Assembly: GCA_018266795.1 (NCBI GenBank)
Contig: JAFDZV010000051.1
Coordinates: 1-42,488 of the forward strand
Direction of reading: 5' to 3'
DNA length: 42,488 bases
Source of the DNA: Bacteroidota bacterium
GTDB taxonomy: Bacteria; Bacteroidota; Ignavibacteria; OLB7
Part shown: positions 1,256 to 1,671 of the stretch, piece after piece
Layout of the letters: every line of letters starts with the position of its first letter
How positions within the stretch are numbered: position 1 is the stretch's first letter
The notes under the pieces: model-generated
Database searches by the model: none
Told to the model about the DNA's origin: nothing
What the model saw: the letters and a program-made list of their open reading frames with translations, nothing else
Made by a program: the position numbers and the translations under genes

Positions 1256-1285
1256 TTGACATCGCAACGCGAGATGTTGTATCAT
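1256..1285 (+). promoter_or_regulatory. Sigma-70-like promoter with an operator-like spacer
   Basis: TTGACA (1256-1261, a perfect -35) is followed after 18 bases by TATCAT (1280-1285). Transcription would start near 1292, which is the first base of the outer helix of the structured RNA described next. The spacer contains TCGCAACGCGA (1262-1272), an inverted repeat TCGC-AAC-GCGA in a position where a bound repressor would block RNA polymerase. The same 11 bases recur at 4554-4564. Confidence 0.5.
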
Positions 1286-1291
1286 TGCCGC

Positions 1292-1418
1292 GTTCTATCC
1301 CCGTGCAGCGCCGTCACCAGGGGCGCTGCTCCTCATGAATCCACCCGACCCCACATGTTCCGCGCCGTTCGGCGGTGGGTGGTGCACATTCATGCGTCGT
1401 CTCCATCGGGAATAGAAC
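1292..1418 (+). ncRNA. Candidate structured RNA with a three-way junction
   Basis: Three helices enclose one another. Outer P1: GTTCTAT (1292-1298) with ATAGAAC (1412-1418), continued past one C-A mismatch by CCCG (1300-1303) with CGGG (1407-1410). P2: GCAGCGCC (1305-1312) with GGCGCTGC (1322-1329). P3: CATGAAT (1334-1340) with ATTCATG (1388-1394), then CCACCC (1341-1346) with GGGTGG (1377-1382), capped by CGCC-GTTC-GGCG (1363-1374). P1 closes the whole fold and starts at the expected transcription start. It could be a free small RNA, or the 5' domain of a 380-base leader for the T9SS gene at 1672. I do not recognise TPP, FMN, cyclic-di-GMP or hammerhead core motifs. A small hairpin, GAAGC-ctcgt-GCTTC, follows close behind. 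No folding program or Rfam search was run. Confidence 0.5.
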
Positions 1419-1671
1419 ACAGTGAAGCCTCGTGCTTCTCCACCTCCTGTCTTCGCACTTCCCTTACAGTGCTTCGCCACTGGTCGCTGCATCAACAGTT
1501 CCCATCAAAACCGTGACGTGCTTCAAAGCCCGTGGGCCTTGCCGCGCCGAAGTTGGGAACTCTGATCACACGTGTCCCTCCCCCGTGACACCACACCAAC
1601 GCGCACACCGGCTCGAGATAGAGAGGAGCGGTGCTGCTCATCAATTTCCATATCCTGACGGGAGATATGAC
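1419..1671 (+). other. Gene-free leader upstream of the cysteine-rich T9SS gene
   Basis: About 250 bases lie between the structured RNA and the ATG at 1672. The reading frame stays open through it, but the encoded sequence is Cys-, His- and Arg-rich and unlike a signal peptide. I treat it as untranslated. It ends in GGAG (1661-1664), a ribosome binding site seven bases before the chosen start. Confidence 0.5.

Follow-up and report, generated by a model that had tools for sequence, protein, structure and literature searches.

Helices at the extreme 5′ end of an mRNA have been described for several exported or envelope proteins. As cited in two articles, 5′ stem-loops stabilize the ompA and papA mRNAs of Escherichia coli and the leader of aprE from Bacillus subtilis, which encodes a secreted protease (PMC3997798; PMC7509114). 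For purified B. subtilis RppH, two or more nucleotides have to be unpaired at the 5′ end (PMC3997798). The element analyzed here resembles these stem-loops in that a helix is placed at the extreme 5′ end of an exported protein's mRNA. It differs from them in forming a multi-helix junction with sequence conservation in the outer helix (P1) and in the loop of the second helix (P2), and any stabilizing effect is putative. With translational riboswitches and other switching 5′ leaders it shares a P1-closed junction, one strand of which is able to pair with the Shine-Dalgarno region. In contrast to translational riboswitches, it is the 5′ strand and not the 3′ strand that would be shared, the start region is 250–340 nt away, and there is neither a known ligand or conserved binding core nor a match to an Rfam family. 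6S RNA (RF00013) is likewise stable, is transcribed from a promoter of its own, and has paired ends, but its shape is that of a long, centrally bulged rod instead of a branched junction; as a candidate it was rejected, since no genome-wide match was obtained at E ≤ 10, with a control set that was positive in 8 of 14 genomes. To our knowledge, post-transcriptional control of type IX secretion system (T9SS) cargo is little described, and a limited literature search retrieved no paper joining the two subjects. A structured leader in front of two paralogous cargo genes would offer a small and concrete test case, with two natural variants in one genome and clear mutations to make.

Genomic Context of the Element

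The window, i.e., the whole stretch of DNA that was analyzed, is a complete contig (C46) of 42,488 nt from a 5.97 Mb genome assembled in 71 contigs, and T9SS-exported proteins are encoded on it. The element is located between the end of an orphan gene (1094) and the start of a T9SS cargo gene (1672). The cargo gene, P0001 (1672–3216, plus strand), encodes a 514-aa protein with a cysteine-rich repeated domain and a T9SS type A C-terminal sorting domain (PF18962, E 1.6e-8; TIGR04183, E 1.7e-8). No Pfam domain was found outside of the sorting tail, and the AlphaFold model of the product (mean pLDDT 43.6) was too poor for use. The family with the cysteine-rich repeated domain has several copies in the same genome (contigs C71, C37, C26, and C27) and only partial matches elsewhere. 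Full-length relatives of the P0001 protein were found in its own genome only. The closest paralogue is located on contig C71 (162853–164394, minus strand) and shows 48% protein identity. Sequenced kin are few, with one genome from the same genus and three more from the rest of the family. The orphan gene upstream (591–1094) codes for 167 aa with membrane-like segments and is preceded by a DUF7832 gene (108–551); no convincing homologue of it was found among 99 relatives.

Predicted Promoter and Fold of the Window RNA

A sigma-70-type promoter, TTGACA-N18-TATCAT, is present at positions 1256–1285 of the plus strand, as stated in the initial annotation, and matches the consensus in 11 of 12 positions. 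It is the sole plus-strand match of this type within the first 6 kb of the window, and no further promoter-like site was found from 1285 to 1672. The exact pattern TTGACA-N16-18-TATCAT occurs at two sites in the 5.97 Mb genome and at none in a reversed control. Since sigma-70-like sites in sampled intergenic DNA were not enriched compared to shuffles, the consensus match by itself is no proof of transcription. The other exact TTGACA-N18-TATCAT site (L069:1501–1530; G000:C1:49620) adjoins a downstream gene on the same strand with a strong Shine-Dalgarno sequence and lacks a structured leader.

The initial annotation had further described an 11-pair outer helix with one mismatch, which opens at the predicted transcription start (1292), closes at 1418, and encloses helices of 8 and 17 pairs. 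Thermodynamic folding recovered all three helices. P1 is formed by GUUCUAUCCCCG (1292–1303), which opens at the predicted +1 and is also the best candidate for an anti-Shine-Dalgarno strand, and by CGGGAAUAGAAC (1407–1418), with 11 of 12 Watson-Crick pairs (7 + 4, interrupted by one C-A mismatch). The P2 hairpin (1305–1329) has the expected eight pairs (1305–1312 with 1322–1329) and the loop GUCACCAGG, in which the pattern G.C.CCA is conserved in the C71 copy described below. The third helix (P3, 1332–1396) is also recovered, with a solid base (CAUGAAU/AUUCAUG) but an uncertain apex, the minimum free energy (MFE) structure containing 22 pairs and the centroid fewer. Inspection by eye shows that the 3′ arm of P3 contains a complement, UGGUG (1380–1385), of the P2 loop bases CACCA (1315–1319), which would allow for a loop contact or pseudoknot; the P2 loop of the C71 copy, GCCAA, has a weaker partner, UUGG.

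A coincidence by chance of the start with the closing helix had been regarded as unlikely, and this assessment was borne out: pairing of 11 out of 12 positions within 80–200 nt of a given start occurs at 0.1% of random window positions, and at 0.4% if a slack of ±3 nt is allowed. The region 1292–1418 folds with −52.1 kcal/mol (z −2.90; 1 of 200 shuffles equal or better). A z-score of −2.9 or below is reached by 7.5% of random intergenic 120-mers from the same genome, and the folding energy alone therefore is modest evidence in such fold-prone intergenic DNA. When downstream sequence is added, the probability of P1 remains at 0.98 for up to 300 nt and amounts to 0.52 with the whole leader. A descriptor combining promoter and helix was far too permissive to count as evidence. 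Before the second copy is considered, the evidence from the window is suggestive only.

A Second Copy Upstream of the Closest Paralogue

A block of the window (1277–1340, plus strand), which comprises the −10 box, the first transcribed bases, the P1 5′ strand, P2, and the start of P3, has a counterpart upstream of the closest P0001 paralogue (G000:C71:164800–164865, minus strand). Aligned locally, the two upstream regions of about 600 nt each agree best in this shared block, over a length of 62 nt (E 0.008), and nothing else of note was found between them. The −10 box region of the window aligns with TGTACTAT of the C71 copy, and in both copies nine bases separate the −10 box (TATCAT in the window) from CTATCCCCG. 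The promoter of the C71 copy, TTGGAA-17-TACTAT, matches the consensus in 8 of 12 positions and is under the scan threshold. The stretch that runs from the −10 box to the start of P3 has 40 identical bases out of 64, compared to 58% for the coding sequences of the two paralogues and about 44%, under forced alignment, for the remaining leader. Conservation of the block is therefore no weaker than that of the coding sequence. The rest of the long window leader (1419–1657, plus strand) is not alignable to the C71 copy.

The core of the C71 copy folds with −49.5 kcal/mol (z −4.80; 0 of 200 shuffles equal), a z-score that is reached by 1.1% of the background windows. P1 (UCCUAUC/GAUAGGA), P2, and P3 are found at matching places, and P1 begins at most 2 nt from the base equivalent to the window +1. 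A fourth hairpin is present in addition, resulting in a four-way junction. Thus, the three-way junction of the initial annotation holds for the window as a structured RNA from the predicted start, but the junction type is not conserved, and the conserved core is narrowed to the 5′ end, P1, P2, and the start of P3. A homologous locus that breaks P1 without compensation had been named there as a refutation; at the one homologous locus that was found, a paralogous one, P1 is kept with two-sided changes.

MAFFT puts the P1 3′ strand in the wrong place when the two RNAs are aligned over their full length, and the pair counts were therefore based on 5′ and 3′ pieces that had been joined. In the two sequences P1 and P2 are paired in 89.7% of the cells, compared to 35–45% when the partners are slid against each other. 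Two-sided pair changes between the window and the C71 copy amount to two in P1 and one in P2, the same number being attained by column shuffles in 65 of 500 trials, and three positions of the inner P1 are unpaired in one or the other copy. These pairing statistics lend support to P1 and P2 but fall short of proof, since only two sequences are compared and the structure was chosen with both in view. The P1 3′ strands of both loci are located outside of the conserved block. If the shared 5′ end is fixed and the 3′ part shuffled, P1 regains its observed strength in 0.25% of the cases for the window and in 0.5% for the C71 copy; with 30 extra nt, equal strength is reached in 0 of 300 cases for the window and in 15% for the C71 copy. 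The probability of P1 in the C71 copy depends on the context length, with 0.00–0.12 for 150–300 nt, 0.9 for the whole leader to 455 nt, and 0.26 at 480 nt, where some coding sequence is included.

Because there is a diverged second copy with a matching promoter position and partly compensated pairs, the element is probably genuine and not a product of chance, and probably represents a so far undescribed structured leader RNA or control element, known from two copies. A fold spotted by eye in the raw sequence can in this way gain support from an internal paralogue where no orthologue exists.

Searches for Further Copies

A comparison with the 4227 families of Rfam 15 gave no match in the window at the gathering score and none at E ≤ 10 within 1100–1700, in agreement with the initial view that no known riboswitch or ribozyme core fits. 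In order to search relatives, as had been proposed, a covariance model (R1) was built from the two shared blocks of the window and the C71 copy. R1 scored 82.6 and 79.9 bits on these two training sequences, and the next match in the genome, inside coding sequence, reached 19.1 bits. Across the class (391 genomes), the order (5), and the phylum (395), the best other matches reached 22–26 bits, which is at or below chance expectation, and those examined were located in coding DNA or had a broken stem. No third copy was detected in the same genome or in about 780 genomes of the class and phylum. Scanning the genomes of 84,980 species as well as viral contigs for a fixed pattern of the −10 box and CTATCCCCG gave chance matches only (≤21 bits), and a DNA search of 119 relatives returned short chance matches only. 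Inspection by eye of the regions upstream of more distant paralogues (C37, C26, and C27 in the same genome; G001 and G004) revealed no such element. On present data, the 5′ end, P1, and P2 are common to two copies in one genome with none found elsewhere, and the element is a two-copy feature of one lineage.

Seven further near-matches exist in the same genome, mostly in coding sequence. One of them, C44:77671 (L138:1501–1524), precedes a gene that by eye resembles a glycosyl hydrolase 18 protein. Here, TTCTATCCCC follows a −10-like TATCTT, and CTATCCCCA occurs at the same spacing, followed by a GCCCG-CAAC-CGGGC hairpin. This site was rejected as a third copy, as it is without P1; the resemblance is either accidental or a sign of a distantly shared transcript start.

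A Probable Cis-Acting Leader and Its Possible Mode of Action

The initial annotation had left a choice between a free small RNA and a sensor domain in the leader of the T9SS gene. The evidence favors the leader, while the sensor part is only putative. The element is found only in front of two paralogous genes, on the same strand as the gene, with a gap to the start codon of 253 nt in the window and of about 343 nt in the C71 copy, and no intrinsic terminator-like site is present between the RNA and the gene at either locus. For these reasons we consider it fairly probable that the element is a cis-acting structured leader, which forms the first ~127 nt of a T9SS-exported protein mRNA and exists in two copies, each in front of a paralogous gene. 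It may serve in translational control or in mRNA protection.

In this leader, transcription would start at about 1292, and the 5′ end would at once be locked into P1, with P2 and P3 predicted to stack on it in a structure that is kept in both diverged copies. From the absence of a terminator we infer that the transcript would run on into the T9SS gene. The translation start region ACGGGAGAUAUGAC (1658–1671, plus strand), directly in front of the ATG and with the Shine-Dalgarno sequence GGGAG at 1660–1664, is complementary to 1292–1304. As long as P1 is closed, the ribosome-binding site would be free; once P1 is open, its 5′ strand could bind to the Shine-Dalgarno region instead and damp translation. 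Such a possible translational switch might be triggered by a ligand, by temperature, or by a protein bound to the conserved P2 loop, or it might have no trigger at all. Sharing of the P1 5′ strand UAUCCCCG between two partners appears as the most likely mode of action, a choice that we make tentatively and with well less than even confidence. It would explain why the P1 5′ strand is kept in sequence and its 3′ partner only in pairing.

The pairing of 1292–1304 with 1658–1671 comprises 12 pairs with −15.2 kcal/mol, compared to −16.0 kcal/mol for P1. Among the partners that the leader offers to the P1 5′ strand, the start region ranks next to P1 and a site in P3, and the best site beyond these reaches −9.9 kcal/mol. 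Only 0.24% of random genomic 15-mers pair equally well with the window start region. The share of Shine-Dalgarno-like sites that pair equally well with the window strand is 3.6%, a figure to be read against the fact that any C-rich strand suits a Shine-Dalgarno sequence. In the ensemble of 1292–1675, P1 has a probability of 0.53 and the start-region pairing one of 0.32. P1 is dominant for other transcript ends, and at a folded length of 400 or 420 nt of the window RNA the start-region pairing drops below 0.1. In the C71 copy the start region also comes second after P1 (−8.2 versus −11.5 kcal/mol), but its pairing does not exceed the chance level, as 34% of random 15-mers are as good. That the two loci represent a new class of regulatory leaders of T9SS cargo genes, in which the junction retains the first-transcribed P1 5′ strand and its release would allow it to block the ribosome-binding site about 360 nt downstream, seems doubtful at present.

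Alternative Explanations

The main alternative to the translational switch is a 5′-terminal mRNA stabilizer, where the helix at +1 protects the mRNA of the exported protein without any switching. We regard it as possible, if on the unlikely side. The transcript would offer no free 5′ tail to the pyrophosphohydrolase or to nucleases that depend on the 5′ end, and would therefore be long-lived. This fits with the position of P1, whose first base coincides with the predicted +1 of the window and differs from the equivalent base of the C71 copy by no more than 2 nt, with a 5′ end that, given the predicted start at 1292, is paired and has few or no free bases, and with the precedents in mRNAs of exported proteins. 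However, pairing alone would suffice for a stabilizer, whereas the 5′ strand and the P2 loop show sequence conservation, and P1 of the C71 copy is marginal at some of the context lengths. The 5′ end may also be protected alongside the switch or in its place. It is rather improbable that DNA instead of RNA is conserved, i.e., that a shared promoter with the first transcribed bases and a binding site is a duplication remnant kept for transcription, with incidental folds. Conservation does start in the −10 box, and the fold of the window core is equaled by 7.5% of random intergenic windows, but the conservation extends about 50 nt beyond the start into a leader that is otherwise unalignable, P1 and P2 are retained with two-sided changes, the P1 3′ strands are not part of the conserved block, and the core of the C71 copy has a z-score found in 1.1% of the background.

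A free small RNA, transcribed as an independent molecule of about 130 nt from its own promoter and acting in trans, could target ribosome-binding sites with its C-rich 5′ end. The strong promoter, the compact closed structure, and a C-rich seed that suits Shine-Dalgarno sites would be in line with this. In spite of that, no intrinsic terminator-like site follows 1418 or the C71 copy, each of the two copies stands ahead of a paralogous gene and shares its strand, no other copy exists in the genome, and the seed is buried by P1, which makes this explanation clearly unlikely. Least probable of all, and in our view highly so, is a leader peptide, whereby translation of a 26-codon ORF (1335–1415, ATG to TAG) would open P1 in the manner of ribosome attenuation. 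The ORF is present inside the RNA and its stop codon is located within the P1 3′ strand, but the corresponding codon of the C71 copy is a GTG, whose frame of 6 codons is unrelated in sequence, and there is no Shine-Dalgarno sequence outside of the P2 stem.

A Repeated Motif Upstream of Cargo-Domain Genes

A separate observation concerns the upstream regions of cargo-domain genes in three genomes of the family, where TTTAAG occurs twice within a few bases of each other, followed by ATAGC[AG]TGA. The motif is present at four distinct sites (L065:1350 in G000:C26; L067:1177 and 1441, minus strand, in G001:C36; L068:964, minus strand, in G004:C107), with no occurrence in 1.53 Mb of reversed control sequence, and resembles an operator or promoter with conserved direct repeats.
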